Of a stretch of 22,233 bases of DNA, positions 7,942 to 20,507 are shown piece by piece. The DNA is from a virus. Each line of letters begins with the position of its first letter. The first letter of the stretch is position 1. The stretch covers positions 1 to 22,233 of IMG/VR virus record IMGVR_UViG_3300045282_000029, one strand, 5' to 3'. The position numbers were made by a program, and so were the translations under genes. The notes beneath the pieces are model-generated. The model ran no database searches, had not been told where the DNA came from, and worked only from the letters and a program-made list of their open reading frames with translations.

Positions 7942-7976
7942 CCAGGCGGCGACTATGCACCCTGCATGCCGCCTGG
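7942..7976 (+). promoter_or_regulatory. First of two tandem stem-loops after the decoration gene
   Basis: CCAGGCGGC (7942-7950) pairs perfectly with GCCGCCTGG (7968-7976), and inside, after a 4-base bulge, ATGCA (7955-7959) pairs with TGCAT (7963-7967) around a CCC loop. No T tract follows. It begins eight bases after the upstream gene's stop, where an inefficient terminator or an RNA 3'-end protector would be expected. Confidence 0.55.
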
Positions 7977-7981
7977 ACCGA

Positions 7982-8018
7982 GGCCGGGGGAGTTTCGCGT
8001 CGAGGAGCTCTCCCGGCC
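7982..8018 (+). promoter_or_regulatory. Second tandem stem-loop, before the 66-aa gene
   Basis: GGCCGGGGGAG (7982-7992) pairs with CTCTCCCGGCC (8008-8018) over 11 bp with one G-T wobble and a 15-base loop. AAATTGTG then leads to AAGGAGG (8027-8033), the ribosome site of the gene at 8040. The layout hairpin, AATTGTG, Shine-Dalgarno also occurs at 5445-5494. Confidence 0.55.
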
Positions 8019-8039
8019 AAATTGTGAAGGAGGCCGGCA

Positions 8040-8240
8040 ATGGCATTTACCGCAAAGTTCACCGTTCCCCGCGGCAAGCATGCGCAGAAAAACGTGACGA
8101 TCACCGCCGGCAGCGCCGAGGCCCAAACCGACACGATCTCGCTCAACATCGATGCCACGCACATGACCAAGGGCGACGCGATCATTCTGCTCGAGGATCT
8201 CGTGCAGAAGATCCACACGAACAAATGGCCGCCGCTGTGA
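8040..8240 (+). CDS. Hypothetical small phage protein, 66 aa
   Basis: AAGGAGG (8027-8033) lies six bases before the ATG, one of the best ribosome sites in the window, so strong translation is expected. The N-terminus is beta-like (FTAKFTVPRG, KNVTITAGSAEAQTDTISLNID) and the C-terminus a short helix (GDAIILLEDLVQKIHTN). No hydrophobic membrane segment is present. I do not recognise the family. Between the decoration gene and the gp11-like gene a small head-completion or decoration protein would fit, but this is a guess from position. Confidence 0.65.
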   Translation: MAFTAKFTVPRGKHAQKNVTITAGSAEAQTDTISLNIDATHMTKGDAIILLEDLVQKIHTNKWPPL

Positions 8241-8253
8241 AAGGCGGCCGCAA

Positions 8254-8838
8254 ATGGCAAACTACGTCCAAATCGCCAACCTCGCCGCGACGCTGATCGG
8301 CAACCAGGCGCGGATCACCAGCCCCGATGACAACACCGTGCTCGCGCGCACGATCAAGGCGGTCTGGGATCTGCAGCGCAAGGCGACGCTGCGCGACGGC
8401 GAATGGAATTTTGCCTGCCAGCGCGCCGGCCTCCCCGCGCTCGCGGCCGCGACGCCCTATCCGTTCGGCTATGCCTACCAGCTGCCGGCCGAGGCGCTCA
8501 AGCTGGTCGAGCTGATCGACGATCCGCGCGACGAGTACCGGCTCGAGGGCCGGCAGATCCTCAGCAATAGCGCGCCGCCGCTCTATGTCCGGTTCTGCAT
8601 CGATGTGCCGGCGCCCGAGGCCTGGGATGACACCTTCGCCGACGCCTTCGGCAAGCGCATCGCCTGGACGATCGGCCGCCGCATCGCCGGCAGCGCTTAC
8701 GACCCGGCCGTGGGCGCGACGATCTACGCCCAGGCGATCGAGCAGGCCAAATCGATCGACGCGCGCGAGAACCCGCCGCTCGAGCAGGAAGAAAGCTCCT
8801 GGATCACCGCGCGGTTTGGCTGGCCGGGAATCGTCTGA
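8254..8838 (+). CDS. Tail tubular protein A (T7 gp11-like adaptor)
   Basis: This 194-residue protein is the adaptor ring that joins portal to tail tube. The helix-rich N-terminus, the WDLQRKATLRDGEWNFACQRAGLPAL segment (in pieces around 39-62, with conserved R-D-x-x-W-N-F), the YPFGYAYQLPAEALKLVEL stretch (68-86) and a C-terminal helical half ending in ARFGWPG are typical of T7 gp11-type proteins. Length is normal for the family. The ribosome site is weak (AAAGG at 8240-8244, nine bases before the ATG), and the gene starts 13 bases after the previous one. The stop shares one base with the next start. Confidence 0.85.
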   Translation: MANYVQIANLAATLIGNQARITSPDDNTVLARTIKAVWDLQRKATLRDGEWNFACQRAGLPALAAATPYPFGYAYQLPAEALKLVELIDDPRDEYRLEGRQILSNSAPPLYVRFCIDVPAPEAWDDTFADAFGKRIAWTIGRRIAGSAYDPAVGATIYAQAIEQAKSIDARENPPLEQEESSWITARFGWPGIV

Positions 8839-11685: not shown

Positions 11686-12122
11686 TGGATCCGGTGAGCG
11701 CAGGCTTCAAGGTCGCGGGCGGCCTCATCAAGGGCATCGGCGGGATCGCGGCCGGGCGCCAGCAGCAGCAGGCGCTCGTCGAGCAGGGGCGCCAGGAGAA
11801 CATCGCCGGCAACCTGCAGGCGACGCGGATCCGCGAGCAAGCGCGGCGCGCGCTCGGCGAGCAGGTTGGCGGGCAGTTCGCCAATGGCTTCCAGGGCGGC
11901 ACGGGCTCGGCGCTCGACGATCTCTCCGAAAGCCAGATCAATTCGACGCTCGACGCGCTGCAAACGCGGCGCGACGCCGCGACCAAGGCCGCGAGCCTCT
12001 ACACGCAGGGCAACATGGCGCGCCGCAGCGCCGGATGGGATGCCGTCGCCGGCCTCGTCGGCACGGGCAGCGATCTCTACGGCATGCACCAGGATTGGGC
12101 GCGTGCGCAGGCGCCTAGCTGA
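11685..12122 (+). CDS. Internal virion protein in the gp14 position, 145 aa
   Basis: ATG at 11685 shares a base with the preceding TGA; GGGGAGG (11671-11677) is seven bases upstream. The N-terminus is a Gly/Ala/Ile-rich, mildly hydrophobic segment (AGGLIKGIGGIAAG, residues 11-24), followed by a Gln/Arg/Glu-rich coiled-coil-like region and an amphipathic end. A hydrophobic Gly-rich start with a helical charged body is what T7 gp14-type ejection proteins show, and the position between the gp13-like and larger internal proteins supports this. T7 gp14 itself goes into the host outer membrane during ejection. Assignment rests on position and composition, not on a decisive motif. Confidence 0.6.
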   Translation: MDPVSAGFKVAGGLIKGIGGIAAGRQQQQALVEQGRQENIAGNLQATRIREQARRALGEQVGGQFANGFQGGTGSALDDLSESQINSTLDALQTRRDAATKAASLYTQGNMARRSAGWDAVAGLVGTGSDLYGMHQDWARAQAPS

Positions 12123-14146
12123 TGGCCGGCGAGGAGATCTATCAGCCGCGGGTGATGCCCGACGCGCCGGCGGCGATGCCACTCGCAAGGCCCGATGATT
12201 TTGGCGCGCAAGTCGGCGGTGCGCTCAGCCAGGCCGGCGATGTCGTCAACCGCGCCGCGATCCAAAGCTACACGCAGAACCGCGAGCTCGAGGCCGACCG
12301 TGAGCTCGCGCGCAAGCAGGCCGAACTCGGCCAGGTCAAGGATCGGCAAGAAGCGCTCGCGCAGCAGATGCGGCTCAACCCCGACAACGGCGATCCGTCC
12401 TATCCGGGGCACGAGGGGCTCTGGCGCGAGAGCACCGAAGCGAACCGCGGCCCGCTGCTCGACAACATCAAGGAAGGCCGCAATCGGCGGATGCTCGAGC
12501 AGCATTTCAACGATTACCTCTCGACCGGCTACCAGCGCGAAGCCGACTTCGCCGAAGCGCGCCGCGCCGGGCAATTCGTCGTCGACCAAAAGGCCGCGCA
12601 GGCCGGCGCGGCGAACCGGATCCGCACGACGCTCGACGATCCGCTGGTGGCCTGGCAGCAAGAGCTCAACCACTCGACCGACGCGCTCTACACGGGCAAC
12701 CCTCGCGCGACGACCGACGTTCTCGGCAGGGCCGAGCAGGAAAACCACGACGTCTATGCGGCGGCGCTGTTCGATCGCACGACCAACGGCGTTACCGGCG
12801 TCGACGGCAAGACCGGCGAGCCCGGCAATCCGCAGCGCACGATCGCGATGATCGACAGCGGCAAGTTCGGCGATGTCTCGCCGCCCGTGCTCGATGCCGC
12901 GCGCAGCTATGCGGAGGCGGCGCTCCGGCGGCAGCAGGCCGAGGCGCACCAGGCCGAGGCGGCGCAGCGGGCGGCCTACACCGACGCGATCGCGGCCGCG
13001 AAGATCCGCGACGAGCAGGGGCTCGATGTCGGCGATCTCAAGCCAATCGAGGCCGCCGCGGCCCAATTCAACGACAAGTCGGCGCTCGAGGACGTCCGCC
13101 GCCTCGGGCGCAATCGCGGTTTTCGGCAGAGCTCGCAAAACGCCACGCCCGAACAGGTGCAGGCGCGGATTTCGGCGCTCGAGGCGGTGCCCGAGGCCAA
13201 GCGCAGCGACGATGTAAAAGCCGAGATTACCTATCTCAAGGGCCACCAGGCCGCGCTCGCCGAGGGCTTCAACACCAATACCGCGCAGTGGGTGATCGAG
13301 CATGGCCCGCCGGGATCCAAGCCGCCGCCGCTTGACGGCCCCGGCGGGCTTGCCGCGCGCGAGGCCTGGGCGCGGCGCATGGCGATCGCCTACAAGCGCC
13401 CCGATTTTCCGCTATTCGGCGAGGACGAGCGCGCGCGCTATCGCTCCGAGGCCGCCCGCCCCGATGGCGAGGTGGCGGTCATGCGCGATCTCGCCGGATT
13501 CTCGCAGAGCGGGCGGATGCAGGCCGCGCGCGATATCGATCCCGAGAACGCGATGCTGCAACGCCTGGCCGTGGTGCCGAGCGAGTATCTGCCGCTGATC
13601 TCGGAAGGCGCCGCCGCGCGCAAGGCCAACCCGAAGCTGATCGACGGCGACAACGGCGCGATTGCGCAGGATGCGTTCGACCGCATCGTCGGCCCGGCTT
13701 TGCAGAATTACTCGGTGCGCGATCGTACGGCCGCCTTCGAGGTCGCGCGCAGCCTCTATGCGCAGTGGGCCTCGAAACACGCGATTTCCGCGTTCCGCGC
13801 CAGCGATTTCGAGCCGCTGATCCGCCACGCGCTCGGCGCCCAGGTCGGCAGTTGGGGCGGCAATCAAGTGATCTTGCCGTCCGGGTGGGACGACGCGCGA
13901 TTCCACCGCTGGCTCAACGGCTACAAGGCGAGCGGCAATCCCAATAGCGCGCCGTACAATGCCGATGGCACGCCGATGAGCGAGGCCGATCTGCGCCGCC
14001 AGTTTACGCCGGTGCTGCGCCCCGATGGCGGCTATCAGTTCCACGGCCCCGGCGGCTCGATCGTCAAGCGCCGCGATCGCGTGCAGCCGTTCATCCTCTA
14101 CCCGCGCGAGGCGCCGGCGCCGGTGCGGCCGAGGGCCGCGCCATGA
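12122..14146 (+). CDS. Large internal virion protein, gp15-like position, 674 aa
   Basis: This long, almost wholly helical protein is Ala, Arg, Glu and Gln rich, with Ala-rich coiled-coil segments such as QAEAHQAEAAQRAAYTD near 276-292 and many Arg/Gln heptad-like stretches. Near the N-terminus is a Pro/Asp/Ala linker, and near residues 573-590 the QVGSWGGNQVILPSGW motif with a following amphipathic helix looks like those of known internal or ejection proteins of podoviruses. No catalytic motif is visible. It starts one base over the preceding stop and ends overlapping the next gene by four bases. It probably forms part of the ejection channel with the neighbouring products. Confidence 0.6.
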   Translation: MAGEEIYQPRVMPDAPAAMPLARPDDFGAQVGGALSQAGDVVNRAAIQSYTQNRELEADRELARKQAELGQVKDRQEALAQQMRLNPDNGDPSYPGHEGLWRESTEANRGPLLDNIKEGRNRRMLEQHFNDYLSTGYQREADFAEARRAGQFVVDQKAAQAGAANRIRTTLDDPLVAWQQELNHSTDALYTGNPRATTDVLGRAEQENHDVYAAALFDRTTNGVTGVDGKTGEPGNPQRTIAMIDSGKFGDVSPPVLDAARSYAEAALRRQQAEAHQAEAAQRAAYTDAIAAAKIRDEQGLDVGDLKPIEAAAAQFNDKSALEDVRRLGRNRGFRQSSQNATPEQVQARISALEAVPEAKRSDDVKAEITYLKGHQAALAEGFNTNTAQWVIEHGPPGSKPPPLDGPGGLAAREAWARRMAIAYKRPDFPLFGEDERARYRSEAARPDGEVAVMRDLAGFSQSGRMQAARDIDPENAMLQRLAVVPSEYLPLISEGAAARKANPKLIDGDNGAIAQDAFDRIVGPALQNYSVRDRTAAFEVARSLYAQWASKHAISAFRASDFEPLIRHALGAQVGSWGGNQVILPSGWDDARFHRWLNGYKASGNPNSAPYNADGTPMSEADLRRQFTPVLRPDGGYQFHGPGGSIVKRRDRVQPFILYPREAPAPVRPRAAP

Positions 14147-17100
14147 GCGGGCGCGGTGTCCTGTCGGGCGAGCAAGCCATCGACGATCAGAGCCGGATGG
14201 CACCGGCCGCGCAGGCGACGCCGCCCTGGTATCATGTCGATTGGGACGCCCACCAGGCCGCGGCCGAGGAGTCGGCGAGCGATACGATGGCCTGGCAGAC
14301 CGCGCAGCGCAGCGCCGCGCTCGACGATGCCGCGCAGCGGCTCGCCAAGCTCCGCGGGCAACCGTTCGACAGCTACTATATCGGGCTCGGCGGCACGCCC
14401 GCGGGCTTTGCCCCGACCGTCGACACGAACCGGCTCTATGCCGATCTCGCGGCGCTGCCGCCCGAGCAGCGCAAGCAGTTCGATATCGGCAACAATCCGC
14501 AGGAATTCGAGGCGATGATGCGCGAGCGCGGGCGCGTCGCCGCGGCCGAGCGCGAGCGGCGGATGGCGAAGGGCGGTGCGCTCGGCAATTTCGGCGGCGG
14601 CATGGTCGGCGGCTTCGCCAATCCGATCACCGATGCGACCTTGCCGATCGGCGGCTTCGGCCGCGGCGTCGCGATGAAAATCGCCACCGAAGCGCTGACG
14701 CAAGCGGGGATCGCCGGGCTCGAGGCGCCCGAAACCTATGCCGCCCGGCAGATGCAGGGCCGCAAGCTGACGCCCGAGGAAGTGCTGCGCAACATGGAGC
14801 TCGCCGGCGCCGGCGGCGCCGCGGTCAAGAGCCTGCACCTGGCCGGCGGCGCCGCGGTCGACAAGGCGCTCGAAACGAGCCTGCCGTGGCGCATGGCGCA
14901 AGCGCTCAAGACGGCGACGCCCGAGGGCAAGATGCTGCCGGCCGATCAGCTATCCGCCGCGCATGTGATCGAGCGCGAGGCCGAGATCGACGCGACGAAC
15001 CCCTATCAGAACAGTTACCAGGGGATCGGCGCGCACCGCGAGCGGATCGATAGCGAGCTTCAGCGGATCGCCGCGGCGACGCCGCCGCCGACCATGACCG
15101 CGACCGCGGCGCCGCCGGCGGCCGGCATGGCGCCACGGCTCGCGCCGGTCGCCGCCGGCGCCGGCCGCGGTTTCCTCAATGACAGCATTGTCGAGGGGCT
15201 GCTGCGCCGCGGGCTGACCGAGACGCAGGCGCGCGGCGTCGCGGCCGGGATCCACGCCGAGAGCAAGAGCGATCCCGGCGCGCTTGGGCCGCTGCAGGCA
15301 ACCACCGGGCACCGCGCGCTCGGCCTCGGGCAATGGCTCGGCCCGCGCCTCGAGGCGATCACGGCGCGCTATGGGCCGCGCCCAACGCTCGATCAGCAAC
15401 TCGATTTTCTCGTCGAGGAATTGAAGGGCGGCCATCCGGCCGGCGCCAAGGTGCTCGGCCAGAAGGATCCGGCCGCGGTGCTCAGGAGCTACATCGAGGA
15501 TTTCATGGTGCCCGGCGCGCCCGGTTCGCCCGATGTGGTCAAGGATATCGGCCGCGGCATGGAAGCGCTTGGGCTCGGCGGGGAGGAAGCGCCGGCGACG
15601 GGCGCGCCCGGAGAGCCCGAACCGCTGCCGCCGGTGCCCGAGCTCGACGCGCCAGGCCCGAGCGCGGCCGCGGTTGCGGCGCGCGAGGAGCCAGGCGCGG
15701 CGCCGGCCCCGGCGCCGCCGACCACGCCCGACGAGCCGCTGCAAGTCCGCCCCGAAGTCACGCACGAGGGGCTCGTGCCCGTGGTGCGCCAGATCATCGC
15801 CGATCGCGGCCAACGGCTCGACGTCGAAAAAATCGCGGCCGCGCTCGAGGTCGAGCCGCACCAGGTGCGCCGCGCGCTCGACGAGCTCGTGCAGAACGGC
15901 GAGCTCCATTCCAACCGCGAGGATCTGCGGCTCAAGGCCGAGCGCGTGCGGCGCGCGGCGAACGCGGCATCGGGCGCCGCGCGCAAGGGCACCGACAAGA
16001 TCAAGCTGACAGCGGCGGCGCCGATCGACGAGGCCGCTGTCACCTATCGGCGCCGCGCGCAGCCGGCGGCCAACCGCGGCGGCGACAACCTGTTGCAGTT
16101 CATTTCGCGGCACGGCGGGATCTCCGAGGACGGGCTCAACGACGCCGGCCGCGTGCTCGGCACCAAGGGCCACGATCTCAAGGAAACGCATCAGAAATGG
16201 GTGCCCGGGCATGGCCCGCTGATCCGCAAGACCGGCCTATCGATCGACGACATGGGCGAACGGCTATGGGGCGAAGGCTATTTCGGGCCGCCCGAAGTGA
16301 CGCCGCGGCCGAGCGAGGCCGAGGTGCTCGGCGCGATCGAGCGTTCGATCAAAGGCGAGAAGATCCATTCGTTCTATGAGGACGGGCCGCCGCCCGCGGC
16401 CAAGGCCAGCGATTTCGCGCCGCCCGATCCCGATAAGGTGACGAGCGACGAGGCGCTCGTGCAGACCTATCAGACCTGGGATGCGGTCGCCGCGCACGTC
16501 GGCCTCGCCGATCGGTTCAGCCTCGCCGAGATCGACCATGCGCGCGAGATCATGGCGCGCGGCACCGACAGCTTGCCGCCGCTCGACAAGCCCGAGGGCG
16601 AAGCATCCCCCGAAGAACTCGCGCCCTATTTGCTCGAGGCGGTCAATCGCGATATTCCGACCGGCGAAACCGAGCTCGACGGCGATTTGCAGGGTGCGGC
16701 GGTCGATTCCGAGGAGCCAACCTATGAACACTATGCCGCTGCCGCCGCTCAAGTCGACGCCGCCGCCGACCGCGGAGGATCTCGACCGGCTGCGCCAGAA
16801 GCTGGCCCTGGCCGAGAAGGCGCTGCAGGATCCCAAGGTGACGCAGGAGACAAAGGAGCGGCTCAAGGTGTCGAGCGCCCGGGTCAAGCGGGTGCTGTTC
16901 CTGGCGGAGAGCGTTTACCCGCAGCTGAAAGCGCCGCCGGCCGAGGCGGCGAACCTGTCACCGGGGCAACTCCCGATCTCACCGGCGCCGAGCGCGACGC
17001 CGCCAACGCCGCCGGAAATCTCGGGCCGGTAATTCTCGATAGCGAGGGCCTCAAGGCCTTCGACGATCCCACCGGCGCGCCCGCGGACAAGGCCGCCGAC

Positions 17101-18036
17101 GATGCCTGGCATGATATCCAGGCCGCGGCCGAGGCGAAAAAGCCGCCGGCGGCAAAGCGCAAGAAGGGCGACGAGAACCCGCTCGTGCGCCGCGGCGATA
17201 CCGTGACGCTGACCCAGGACGTCGACTATCTGAGGGCCGGCGAAACCTACACGATCGAGCGCGGCAACAAGAAGGAGGCCTATTTCCGCAACGCCGAAAC
17301 CGGCGGCGGCACGTTCCTGCAAAACTGGACGTTGAAGCGGGCGCTCAACCAGGGCCACATGAAGATCGAGCCGCACGAGGCGCCGGCAGAGATTCCCGCG
17401 GCAGGACATGCCGCATCCCCCGAGGGGGCGGCCAGGCCGCCCGAGGCAGGAGCGCCGCCGGCCGAGGCGCCGGCGGCGCTAGCAGCCAGGCAAGGCGAGG
17501 TAAGGCCAAGCGATCCGGCGACGGTGGATATCCTGAAACTCATGGCCGGGGCTGAGGACGACGGCAAATATGCGCCGGTCGATGGCAGCACGCAGCGCGT
17601 TAGGATGCTGCTCGACGAAGGGCTCGCGGCGGTTGATCCGCAATCTGGCCGTGTCGTTACGACGGCCAAAGGCCGCGCGCTGATCGATGCAGCCGAAGCG
17701 CCGCCGGCGGCGCCGAGCCTCGATCTCGGCGAGCAAGTCGATCCCAACCTCGCGGCCAAGCAGCGCCAGGAGCTCGACCTCGCCGCGCAGCAGCCGCTTC
17801 GCGGCGCGCGCAAGACCGGCGCGGCGCAAGAGGAGGTGATGCCCGAGGGCCTGTTCGGCGGCAAGATCGAGCCGCGCATGCTTGCCGAGCTCGAGGCCAA
17901 GGGGCTGGCGGTCGATCTCGGCGACGGCAAGGGCCTGCGCCCCGTCGAGGAGATCCACGCCGAGCTCGAGGACGACGCCAAGGCGATTGACACGATCGCC
18001 AGCTGCATCCTGCCCGGCAAGGGAGGCACGCCATGA
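14143..18036 (+). CDS. Very large multidomain virion protein with tail-lysozyme domain, 1297 aa
   Basis: A giant internal virion protein of mosaic build. Residues 1-260 carry a helical part with GNFGGGMVGGFANPITDATL, as in internal or ejection proteins. About 343-475 is a phage tail-lysozyme (Phage_lysozyme2-type) domain, with GIHAESKSDPGAL (candidate catalytic Glu E373) and GLGQWLGPR; it should cut peptidoglycan during entry. About 537-590 looks like a winged-helix-like unit ending VRRALDELVQNGEL; 650-740 is a module with ISRHGGISEDGLN; about 1018-1073 (GDTVTLTQ and on) is SH3-like; about 1121-1185 looks like another small winged-helix unit; the C-terminus carries an LRGARKTGAAQEE segment recalling modules of large polyvalent phage proteins. 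Residues about 860-945 form a Gly/Ala/Arg/Pro-rich linker encoded by the region that overlaps another gene. GAGGG (14129-14133) precedes the ATG; overlap with the previous gene is four bases. Confidence 0.8.
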   Translation: MSGRGVLSGEQAIDDQSRMAPAAQATPPWYHVDWDAHQAAAEESASDTMAWQTAQRSAALDDAAQRLAKLRGQPFDSYYIGLGGTPAGFAPTVDTNRLYADLAALPPEQRKQFDIGNNPQEFEAMMRERGRVAAAERERRMAKGGALGNFGGGMVGGFANPITDATLPIGGFGRGVAMKIATEALTQAGIAGLEAPETYAARQMQGRKLTPEEVLRNMELAGAGGAAVKSLHLAGGAAVDKALETSLPWRMAQALKTATPEGKMLPADQLSAAHVIEREAEIDATNPYQNSYQGIGAHRERIDSELQRIAAATPPPTMTATAAPPAAGMAPRLAPVAAGAGRGFLNDSIVEGLLRRGLTETQARGVAAGIHAESKSDPGALGPLQATTGHRALGLGQWLGPRLEAITARYGPRPTLDQQLDFLVEELKGGHPAGAKVLGQKDPAAVLRSYIEDFMVPGAPGSPDVVKDIGRGMEALGLGGEEAPATGAPGEPEPLPPVPELDAPGPSAAAVAAREEPGAAPAPAPPTTPDEPLQVRPEVTHEGLVPVVRQIIADRGQRLDVEKIAAALEVEPHQVRRALDELVQNGELHSNREDLRLKAERVRRAANAASGAARKGTDKIKLTAAAPIDEAAVTYRRRAQPAANRGGDNLLQFISRHGGISEDGLNDAGRVLGTKGHDLKETHQKWVPGHGPLIRKTGLSIDDMGERLWGEGYFGPPEVTPRPSEAEVLGAIERSIKGEKIHSFYEDGPPPAAKASDFAPPDPDKVTSDEALVQTYQTWDAVAAHVGLADRFSLAEIDHAREIMARGTDSLPPLDKPEGEASPEELAPYLLEAVNRDIPTGETELDGDLQGAAVDSEEPTYEHYAAAAAQVDAAADRGGSRPAAPEAGPGREGAAGSQGDAGDKGAAQGVERPGQAGAVPGGERLPAAESAAGRGGEPVTGATPDLTGAERDAANAAGNLGPVILDSEGLKAFDDPTGAPADKAADDAWHDIQAAAEAKKPPAAKRKKGDENPLVRRGDTVTLTQDVDYLRAGETYTIERGNKKEAYFRNAETGGGTFLQNWTLKRALNQGHMKIEPHEAPAEIPAAGHAASPEGAARPPEAGAPPAEAPAALAARQGEVRPSDPATVDILKLMAGAEDDGKYAPVDGSTQRVRMLLDEGLAAVDPQSGRVVTTAKGRALIDAAEAPPAAPSLDLGEQVDPNLAAKQRQELDLAAQQPLRGARKTGAAQEEVMPEGLFGGKIEPRMLAELEAKGLAVDLGDGKGLRPVEEIHAELEDDAKAIDTIASCILPGKGGTP
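16711..16716 (+). promoter_or_regulatory. Ribosome binding site of the embedded gene
   Basis: GAGGAG lies seven bases before the ATG at 16724, in the middle of a long ORF where no internal start would be expected. It is as strong as the sites of accepted genes in this window and is the main argument that the embedded frame is translated. Confidence 0.6.
16724..17032 (+). CDS. Embedded overlapping gene inside the lysozyme ORF, 102 aa
   Basis: This frame lies wholly within the 1297-aa ORF, shifted by one base. It has its own GAGGAG at 16711-16716 and ATG at 16724. By my hand count only 11 of its 102 codons end in A or T, while in the host frame 46 of 84 codons do so at 16726-16977, against a strong G/C preference elsewhere. 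The product has a Pro-rich start, a helical middle (about 17-63, a coiled-coil-like Asp/Glu/Lys/Arg pattern with RLRQKLALAEKAL and RVKRVLFLAESV), and a Pro/Ala-rich disordered end. No transmembrane segment, signal peptide or lipobox is seen, so it is not an obvious holin or spanin. I do not recognise the family. The host frame reads through this region without a stop. Confidence 0.7.
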   Translation: MNTMPLPPLKSTPPPTAEDLDRLRQKLALAEKALQDPKVTQETKERLKVSSARVKRVLFLAESVYPQLKAPPAEAANLSPGQLPISPAPSATPPTPPEISGR

Positions 18037-20507
18037 GCATTTCGGTGTGCGTGCAGGGCCTCGTCGACGAGGGCAAGATCAACAAGGGCCAGGCCGAGGA
18101 CGCCGAGCGCATCTACAACCAGCATTTCCACGCGCTCAAAGACCAGATGGGGATGAGCGCGGCGGCCGGCGTCGCGAGCGAGCGCGCGATCGCGGCGATG
18201 AAAGCCGAGCTGATCCGCAAGAAGCTGCTCGCCGCGCGCACGGTCCAGGTGCGCCAGCGCATCGCCGGCGAGCTCGACAGCTACAACGGCGGGCAAGCGG
18301 CTGCGCGCGGCGGCCCGATCGATCCGCGCGCCGGCGCGGCGCTGATCGGCGGCGACGATCGCGCGACCTATTCCAACCTCGAGGGGCGCCGCCGCGCGAT
18401 CGAGCGCCGCGCGTTCGCCGGCATGCACGCGATCCTCGAGAAGTTCTCGAATTCGACGCTCGGCTTTGCGCGCAACCCGGCCGAGCTCGACAATCTCGGG
18501 CGCGAGGCGTTCGGCCAGCATACCGGCGACAAGTCGGCGGCCGAGCTCAACCAGGCCTGGCAGCAAACCGCCGAATATCTGCGCCAGCGCGCCAACGCCG
18601 CCGGCATGGATATCGGCAAGATCGAGAATTGGGGGCTGCCGATCGCGCACAAGAGCCGCGCCGTGCGCAGTGTCGACTTCGCCACCTGGGCCAAGGATAT
18701 GAACGATAACGTCGATCGCGCCAGGATGATCGACAATCGCACCGGCCAGCCTTTCACCGATCCCGCCTGGGACGCGGTGCTGCGCGAGGAATTTGCCAAG
18801 ATTCGCTCGGACGGCGCCTCGCACCGCGAGCCCGGCAGTCCGACCGGCTCGAGCCTGGCGAACCAGCGCGGCGAGGAGCGGTTTTTCCATTGGAAATCTT
18901 ACGATCACTGGAAGGCCTACAACGACCGCTACGGCGAGGGCACCGCCTACAATCTGATGATGAGCCATATCCGCGGCATGGCGCGCGATATCGCGCAACT
19001 CGAGATCCTCGGGCCCAATCCCGACGCGACGCTCACCTGGGTCAAGGACACGATCCACAAGAGCGCGGCAATGGATCCCGCGGCCAATAGCAAGGCGCCC
19101 GACCGCGCCAACGCGGCGATTGCCAAGATCGATCGGATGATGGCCGAGTACACGGGCGAATCGCGGCGCGTGGCAAACCGCAAGCTCGCGCTCGTCGGCT
19201 CGGGCATCCGCTCCTGGCAGACCGCGGCGAAGCTCGGCGGCGCCGTGCTCTCGACGCCGAGCGACCTTGCCTACCAGTTCTCGACGCGCAAATTCAACGG
19301 GCTCCCCGCGGCCAACATGATCCCGCAATATATCAAGCTGATGGCCTCTAGGGGCTCGCAGCAGGAGGCCGTGCGCGCCGGGCTGATCGCCGAGCGCTGG
19401 CTCAGTCATACCGGCGGTTCGTCACGCCAGCTGGCCGGCGAGGAGCTCACCGGCGAAGTTGCCAAGCGCCTGGCCGAAGGCACGATCCGCGCCTCGGGGC
19501 TCGCGCGCGTCACCGACGCCGGGCGCCAGGCCTTCGGACAATCGTTCCTCGGCGCGATCACCGACAATTCGGTGCATACCTGGGACAAGCTCGATCCCGC
19601 GTTCCGCCGCCTGTTCGAGCGCTACGGCATCGGCGAGGCCGAATGGGACAAGATCCGCAAGACCCCGCTCGAGATGAACGGCGGGGTTCCGTGGATCCTG
19701 CCTACCCATGTCGAGGATCACGCGCTCGGCGATCGCCTGCTCGAGATGATCGACCGCGAAACCAATTTCGCCGTGCCCGAGCCAGACCTCGCGACCAAGG
19801 CGGCGATGAGCGCGGTTGGCCGGCCTGGCACCGTCGCCGGCGAACTGTTCAAGAGCTCGGCCTTGTTCAAATCGTTCGGGATCGGCGCCGGCGCGATGCA
19901 GGCGCACCGCATCGCCGTGCGCGCGGCGAGCTCAAAATCCGGCGCGGCCAAGTATGCGGTCGGCCTGGCGATCGGCACGGGGCTGATGGGCGCGCTCTCG
20001 CTGCTCCTCCGAGACGTCATTCTCAGCGGCCAGGATCCGCGCGACGCAATGCGTCAGCCGTTCACCGATCCCAAGACCGGCGAGCTCACGTTGAACCCGG
20101 GGTTTTGGGGCGCCGCGATGGCGCAGGGCGGCGGCACTGGTCCGCTTGGCGATCTCCTGCAAAGCGCCGAAGGGCGCGCGGGCAATTTTTCCGAAACCTT
20201 GGCCGGGCCCGTCGCCGGCGACGTCGGCCGGGCGCTCGCACTGCTCGGCTCCAAGAACCGTGCGGGCGACGCTTTGAAGCTCGCGCGCTCCGAGATCCCC
20301 GGCGGCACGAATTGGTACACGCGGCTCGCCTTCGACCGCATGGTGGCCGACCAGATCCAACAGGAAATCGACCCCAATTATGCGCAGTCGTGGCGGCGGA
20401 TGGAGAAGAACGCCGACGACAAAGGCACGCAATACTTCTGGCGCCCGGGCGACATGGAACCCGAGCGCGCGCCCGATTTCCGCAACATCACCAAGGGAGG
20501 CCACTAA
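18033..20507 (+). CDS. Internal virion / ejection protein, gp16-like C-terminal part, 824 aa
   Basis: AAGGGAGG (18019-18026) lies six bases before the ATG, which overlaps the previous stop in ATGA. The protein is mostly helical, with amphipathic and Ala-rich stretches. Features in line with large internal virion proteins are NWGLPIAHKSRAV near 208-220, TAAKLGGAVLSTPSDLAYQF near 398-417, and a strongly hydrophobic KYAVGLAIGTGLMGALSLLL near 640-659 that could insert in a membrane. The C-terminus ends in a Pro-rich tail. Together with the upstream lysozyme-bearing protein it could replace the single T7 gp16 (lytic enzyme plus ejection parts) by two proteins. No enzymatic motif was found in it. 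Confidence 0.65.
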   Translation: MSISVCVQGLVDEGKINKGQAEDAERIYNQHFHALKDQMGMSAAAGVASERAIAAMKAELIRKKLLAARTVQVRQRIAGELDSYNGGQAAARGGPIDPRAGAALIGGDDRATYSNLEGRRRAIERRAFAGMHAILEKFSNSTLGFARNPAELDNLGREAFGQHTGDKSAAELNQAWQQTAEYLRQRANAAGMDIGKIENWGLPIAHKSRAVRSVDFATWAKDMNDNVDRARMIDNRTGQPFTDPAWDAVLREEFAKIRSDGASHREPGSPTGSSLANQRGEERFFHWKSYDHWKAYNDRYGEGTAYNLMMSHIRGMARDIAQLEILGPNPDATLTWVKDTIHKSAAMDPAANSKAPDRANAAIAKIDRMMAEYTGESRRVANRKLALVGSGIRSWQTAAKLGGAVLSTPSDLAYQFSTRKFNGLPAANMIPQYIKLMASRGSQQEAVRAGLIAERWLSHTGGSSRQLAGEELTGEVAKRLAEGTIRASGLARVTDAGRQAFGQSFLGAITDNSVHTWDKLDPAFRRLFERYGIGEAEWDKIRKTPLEMNGGVPWILPTHVEDHALGDRLLEMIDRETNFAVPEPDLATKAAMSAVGRPGTVAGELFKSSALFKSFGIGAGAMQAHRIAVRAASSKSGAAKYAVGLAIGTGLMGALSLLLRDVILSGQDPRDAMRQPFTDPKTGELTLNPGFWGAAMAQGGGTGPLGDLLQSAEGRAGNFSETLAGPVAGDVGRALALLGSKNRAGDALKLARSEIPGGTNWYTRLAFDRMVADQIQQEIDPNYAQSWRRMEKNADDKGTQYFWRPGDMEPERAPDFRNITKGGH

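Follow-up and report, generated by a model that had tools for sequence, protein, structure and literature searches.

The segment 16724-17032 of the window, as we call the whole stretch of DNA analysed, a virus record of 22,233 bases (IMGVR_UViG_3300045282_000029), is very probably a true protein-coding gene that lies out of frame (+1) inside the gene encoding the lysozyme-bearing ejection protein of an epsilon15-like podophage. The comparison of loci shows, at the level of sequence, coding codon usage in the inner frame, inner conservation beyond that of the outer frame, one family over distant clades, a recurrent position and an enrichment of Shine-Dalgarno sites. A real gene embedded in another frame had been proposed in the first-pass annotation of this DNA, and the comparative evidence across loci strongly supports that proposal. 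The inner protein would be made from the same operon mRNA, with initiation at a Shine-Dalgarno site and ATG that belong to it alone and no dependence on the enclosing frame. The site appears to be a flexible linker that precedes the motif FDDPxG...WHDI in the enclosing protein, and a second frame could have arisen and persisted there because such a linker would tolerate many amino-acid sequences. After its gain, the inner gene would have diverged, been lost and been swapped among alphaproteobacterial phages.

The enclosing gene is the longest frame of the window (Table 1), and the remaining window genes match podovirus connector, capsid, tail and internal-virion families. The window phrog_684 protein shares 27-29% identity with its phiV10 and epsilon15 homologues. 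Residues 556-590 of the outer protein gave a sub-threshold match to a GntR-like winged helix (PF00392, E=0.0013); a DNA-binding domain within an ejected lysozyme protein would be unusual, were this match real. Elsewhere in the window, an ordinary 66-aa gene at 8040-8240 (+) lies beneath a longer frame (7955-8296) that has non-coding codon usage.

Table 1. Coordinates of the putative embedded gene, its enclosing gene and their neighbours in the window.
Feature	Position	Strand	Description
Upstream gene	12122..14146	+	674 aa; 4-nt overlap with the start of the enclosing gene; same operon
Enclosing (outer) gene	14143..18036	+	1297 aa; Phage_lysozyme2-bearing internal virion/ejection protein; occupies the place of phiV10 gp19 / epsilon15 gp16
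Phage_lysozyme2 domain	15187..15519	+	Outer residues 349-459; PF18013, E=1.6e-10
Shine-Dalgarno-like GAGGAG	16711..16716	+	7 nt upstream of the inner ATG (16724)
Embedded (inner) gene, putative	16724..17032	+	102 aa, ATG...TAA, +1 relative to the enclosing frame; helical hairpin predicted, with a disordered Pro-rich C-terminal tail
Outer linker, Gly/Ala/Arg-rich	16726..16977	+	Overlaps the inner gene; codon-ending pattern lost there
Conserved outer motif FDDPxG...WHDI	17059..17118	+	Outer residues 973-992; directly downstream of the embedded gene; landmark common to relatives
Downstream virion structural gene	18033..20507	+	824 aa; phrog_684; epsilon15 gp17 / phiV10 gp20 homologue; bait for related loci

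Codons ending in A or T, recounted by script, make up 11/102 of the inner frame (16724-17029) and 46/84 of the outer frame at 16726-16977, the outer frame having 113/860 before 16722 and 56/334 after 17032. The counts for the two overlapping frames are exactly those of the first-pass annotation, and the GAGGAG site and ATG that it had assigned to the inner frame were also located (Table 1). When all frames of the main window genes were scanned, the +1 anomaly score reached 79 at this site vs about 4-8 in the other long genes, and no second strong +1 signal occurred within any properly framed long gene of the window. The segment scored z=28 vs synonymous-codon shuffles of the outer gene, far beyond what chance would give. 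The coding signal peaks at 16772-16978. The last 18 inner codons (16976-17029), which form a Pro/Ser/Ala tail, show little coding signal, and it is toward this C-terminal end that the length of the inner protein varies among relatives (88, 98, 102 and 130 aa). An antisense gene at the overlap was ruled out, since none of the minus-strand open reading frames of the window spans it.

Homology searches with the inner or the outer protein alone retrieved only two relatives and no annotated phage carrying the inner gene. Both frames are open at the locus in the metagenomic contigs L003 and L004, whose inner proteins are 96% and 66% identical to that of the window, with whole-outer identities of 70% and 54%, respectively; in a third close relative, L076, the inner protein is 45% identical. 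A wider set of loci was gathered by means of the neighbouring phrog_684 protein, comprising 60 loci from bacterial genomes, 80 from viral contigs and, in addition, phage records. The bacterial genomes are mostly of alphaproteobacteria (Sphingomonadales, Rhizobiales, Rhodobacterales and others). Prophages with the locus occur, for instance, in Sphingomonas parapaucimobilis NBRC 15100, Sphingomonas sanguinis NBRC 13937 and Mesorhizobium jarvisii LMG 28313. For 141 loci, the codon-usage score of the best +1 segment within the final 1.7 kb of the outer gene was compared with 200 synonymous shuffles; the results come from this C-terminal part, an initial scan on stop-to-stop frames having been disturbed by the overlap with the upstream gene. 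A z above 4 was obtained in the +1 frame of 59/141 loci and in the +2 frame of 6/141. The 59 positives include near-duplicates, and 42 loci were left after dropping duplicates and doubtful cases. Wherever the outer proteins could be aligned, the +1 segments occupy the variable outer linker, upstream of FDDPxG...WHDI. The sole annotated phage record among the clear positives is Dunaliella viridis virus SI2 (L012), in which the inner gene carries no annotation. The operons of epsilon15 (gp16-gp17) and phiV10 (gp19-gp20) share the gene order of the window and the homologous downstream gene (phrog_684), but the +1 frame of epsilon15 gp16 and phiV10 gp19 has no coding signal.

The inner gene occurs in 50/117 rows of the unrooted phrog_684 tree, and its distribution is patchy, requiring at least 24 changes. 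This patchiness, together with the absence of the gene from phiV10 and epsilon15, suggests that it is not essential to such phages in general, the pattern arising partly because low-GC loci give little codon signal and partly through exchange. Three loci that are sisters on this tree differ in the sequence type present at the site, L088 having type 1 and both L083 and L091 type 2, suggesting the exchange of modules.

Type-1 inner proteins share a core that reads roughly [AQ]xDxRLTxETRxxAxxA. Their profile was rebuilt with each clade omitted in turn and searched against 29,925 ORFs; in 11 of the 12 clades the embedded ORF of the omitted clade ranked 3-9 (E 1e-8 to 0.24), behind near-duplicates of the model rows, and the failure was L085 (E 5.3). 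In L085 (1678-8511), a single 2277-aa frame combines the outer and phrog_684 genes through fusion, and it still contains the embedded gene. When 399 Sphingomonadaceae genomes were searched, the best two new matches (L172 and L173; E 1e-9) were both +1-embedded inside an outer homologue that adjoins a phrog_684 gene. At the same site, type 2 inner proteins end in LMEQDAxAxLA, and type 3 proteins are found in Rhizobiales. Profile comparison did not join type 1 with type 2 (hhalign E 0.83) and gave no firm join with type 3 (E 0.012, probability 3.5%). No Pfam or PHROG family matched the inner protein above cut-off, the best Pfam matches lying under their gathering scores. Two Sphingomonadaceae genomes have small stand-alone ORFs similar to the inner motif (L175 and L176, shown with more of their surroundings in L180 and L181; e.g., LLEVGSNDPRAHPETRRKAESMLRTLRVV), a similarity that is not significant across the 399 genomes; these ORFs are a possible stand-alone source family for the inner gene.

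Substitution counts per codon position were not decisive for the window-L003/L004 comparison, and thus a simulation test was used. In the outer-only null, the second sequence of each pair was simulated with the outer protein fixed; its synonymous codons were drawn anew, with the retention rate and codon usage taken from the adjacent phrog_684 gene. In 17/20 pairs inner identity lay above this null at p<=0.004, and in the other three at p=0.026-0.06, the 20 pairs representing about ten clades and not being all independent. The same test applied to the +1 frame of control windows outside the overlap gave 0/192 at p<=0.05 with a mean z of about -2.5, suggesting that it is conservative.

The reverse null, in which the inner frame alone is constrained, fully accounts for the outer identity in L048/L050/L069 (Mesorhizobium), L026/L142, L012/L032 and L079/L083, where the outer sequence at the overlap behaves as a free linker needing only to stay open. 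For the pairs window-L003, window-L076 and L004-L076, outer identity exceeds the inner-only expectation (p=0.001 each), suggesting that both proteins are constrained in the clade of the window. Thus, the earlier claim that the overlap is maintained mainly for the inner protein stands for other clades, clearly in L048/L050 (Mesorhizobium) and L026/L142, but not for the window's own clade, where both frames are held at the amino-acid level. Three of the features by which overprinted genes are recognised are present, i.e., both frames are open and conserved in divergent relatives, the inner frame is under purifying selection beyond that of the outer frame, and it has its own start signals.

An in-frame ATG lies no more than 180 nt upstream of the segment start in 42/42 loci. 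A Shine-Dalgarno match of at least 5 nt was found at 17/109 ATGs near inner starts vs 5/416 elsewhere in the +1 frame (Fisher p=9e-9); L057 and L034 (the latter also with a +2 signal) were excluded from this test, as they look like frame errors or unusual composition. In L057 (5112-5819), a 177-codon +1 stretch runs beyond the end of the outer frame; it resembles a frameshift of the outer gene more than an embedded gene. In L032, L083 and L129, the inner frame is closed by a stop 1, 3 and 6 codons before the start, respectively. The Shine-Dalgarno enrichment and these stops argue for separate initiation rather than frameshifting, and we infer that the inner protein is translated in vivo. Programmed +1 frameshifting would dispense with a separate gene, ribosomes on the outer frame shifting to yield a short lysozyme protein with an alternative C-terminus. 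The inner frame is indeed open upstream of its ATG for 94 codons in the window and for 179 in L048 and L069, as such a mechanism would need; nevertheless, we regard it as very improbable, since the codon signal begins about at the ATG and not upstream, Shine-Dalgarno sites are enriched at inner starts, and the three loci closed 1-6 codons before the start leave almost no room for a shift.

Separate initiation of an embedded gene leaves the question of how the overlap arose. Relatives and outgroups in which the inner gene is missing (phiV10, epsilon15, L018, L019 and others) have an uninterrupted outer frame, and neither three separate genes nor a separate inner gene next to a split outer gene was found at any locus examined. 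The inner gene was thus most likely gained within an existing, older outer gene, which favours the history of a gene born inside the long one among those considered in the first-pass annotation. Its second history, three neighbouring genes of which the outer two were fused by the loss of a stop, leaving the middle one in another frame, could explain why the outer linker at the overlap resembles non-selected sequence in several clades, and operon genes do fuse, as seen in L085. The continuity of the outer gene where the inner one is missing speaks against it, as does the lack of any three-gene locus, and we consider it improbable. Of the checks that had been suggested, the search for a stand-alone inner gene gave no clear copy in the 12 genomes and records covered. 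In the third history, two compensating indels, whether genuine or sequencing errors, would put the outer frame out of phase for 100 codons and yield a frame-shifted codon pattern between two boundaries; this is practically eliminated by the recurrence of the same arrangement in dozens of independently assembled contigs and in genomes of cultured isolates, where the inner frame is bounded by an ATG, often with a Shine-Dalgarno site, and an in-frame stop.

AlphaFold2 predicts two helices in the inner protein (residues 17-34 and 41-64), pLDDT being >90 over most of each, and a Pro-rich tail that is disordered. A helical hairpin is likewise predicted for type 3, and the helices of both sequence types reach pLDDT >90. 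Fold searches with the predicted hairpin gave no match at E<=0.001 and nothing specific. Tentatively, and at rather less than an even chance, the inner product could serve the internal core/ejection complex as a small accessory with a helical-hairpin fold, either an assembly factor or a small core subunit, and be produced alongside the operon's large ejection proteins; this role is suggested by its embedding in the ejection-protein operon, its small size and analogy. Alternatively, the gene is real but just happens to lie in the late operon, its product serving away from the virion (in regulation, lysis, superinfection or anti-defence, for example); this is a serious possibility that falls only a little short of even. 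Its patchy spread and the swapping of types at one site resemble accessory rather than core virion genes, and it matches no known family, but wherever the inner gene was seen it lay inside the ejection-protein operon, and the search for stand-alone copies described above gave no clear one. The two roles are about equally open. A bolder extension of the accessory role, which we consider rather unlikely, would make the linker a place where new genes keep arising: at least three small +1 proteins (types 1, 2 and 3), unrelated to one another, would have been born or installed there independently, each assisting the ejection machine as a helical partner, and would be exchanged as modules.

Embedded +1 genes are already a known kind, the small Rz1 gene lying wholly within Rz in a shifted frame; such spanin genes are often missed by gene callers, and the overlapped outer part is free to vary (PMC6139136). 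The inner gene described here is likewise wholly nested in a shifted frame with a variable overlapped outer part, but its host is the gene of a large lysozyme-bearing virion protein and not a lysis gene, and it occupies the linker of a long protein, whereas Rz1 lies in the C-terminal half of a small membrane protein. The inner protein starts MNTMPLPPLKSTPPPTAEDL and shows no signal peptide or lipobox by inspection, and the outer protein carries Phage_lysozyme2; the pair was thus rejected as Rz/Rz1 spanins. By annotation, gp23/gp24 of BcepC6B have the lambda-type embedded spanin architecture, and this phage also has a homologous phrog_684 gene. The phiX174 E gene within D and other overprinted viral genes are cases of a de novo-type gene in the other frame of an older gene (PMC8227390); these are other genes of another phage type, and the overlap described here recurs over a broad clade at one linker. 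The T7 protein gp6.7 is an 88-residue core protein that joins the portal barrel, gp14 and gp15 (PMC11784390). With T7 gp6.7 and gp7.3, small ejected core/tail proteins, the inner protein shares the size class of gp6.7 and the proposed role as a partner of the ejection complex, by analogy and not by homology. The T7 gp6.7 and gp7.3 genes stand alone, unlike the embedded gene here.

No report of a conserved gene family in the linker of a virion lysozyme gene was found in the literature searched, which took in few subscription papers. To our knowledge, comparative proof of function exists for few long same-strand embedded genes of phages other than the spanins and those of the phiX group, and gene callers are prone to drop such genes. 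The inner gene forms a family with dozens of natural replicates, and thus rates of gain, loss and dual-frame constraint become measurable. With it, the DNA-ejection machinery of short-tailed alphaproteobacterial phages gains a candidate part that had gone unrecognised, and codon-phase reversals within the linkers of large virion proteins offer a search rule for more such genes. Among betaproteobacterial phages or prophages, weaker +1 signals were seen close to the end of the outer gene in BcepC6B gp16 (L154), L042 and L043, which possibly carry a shorter embedded gene.
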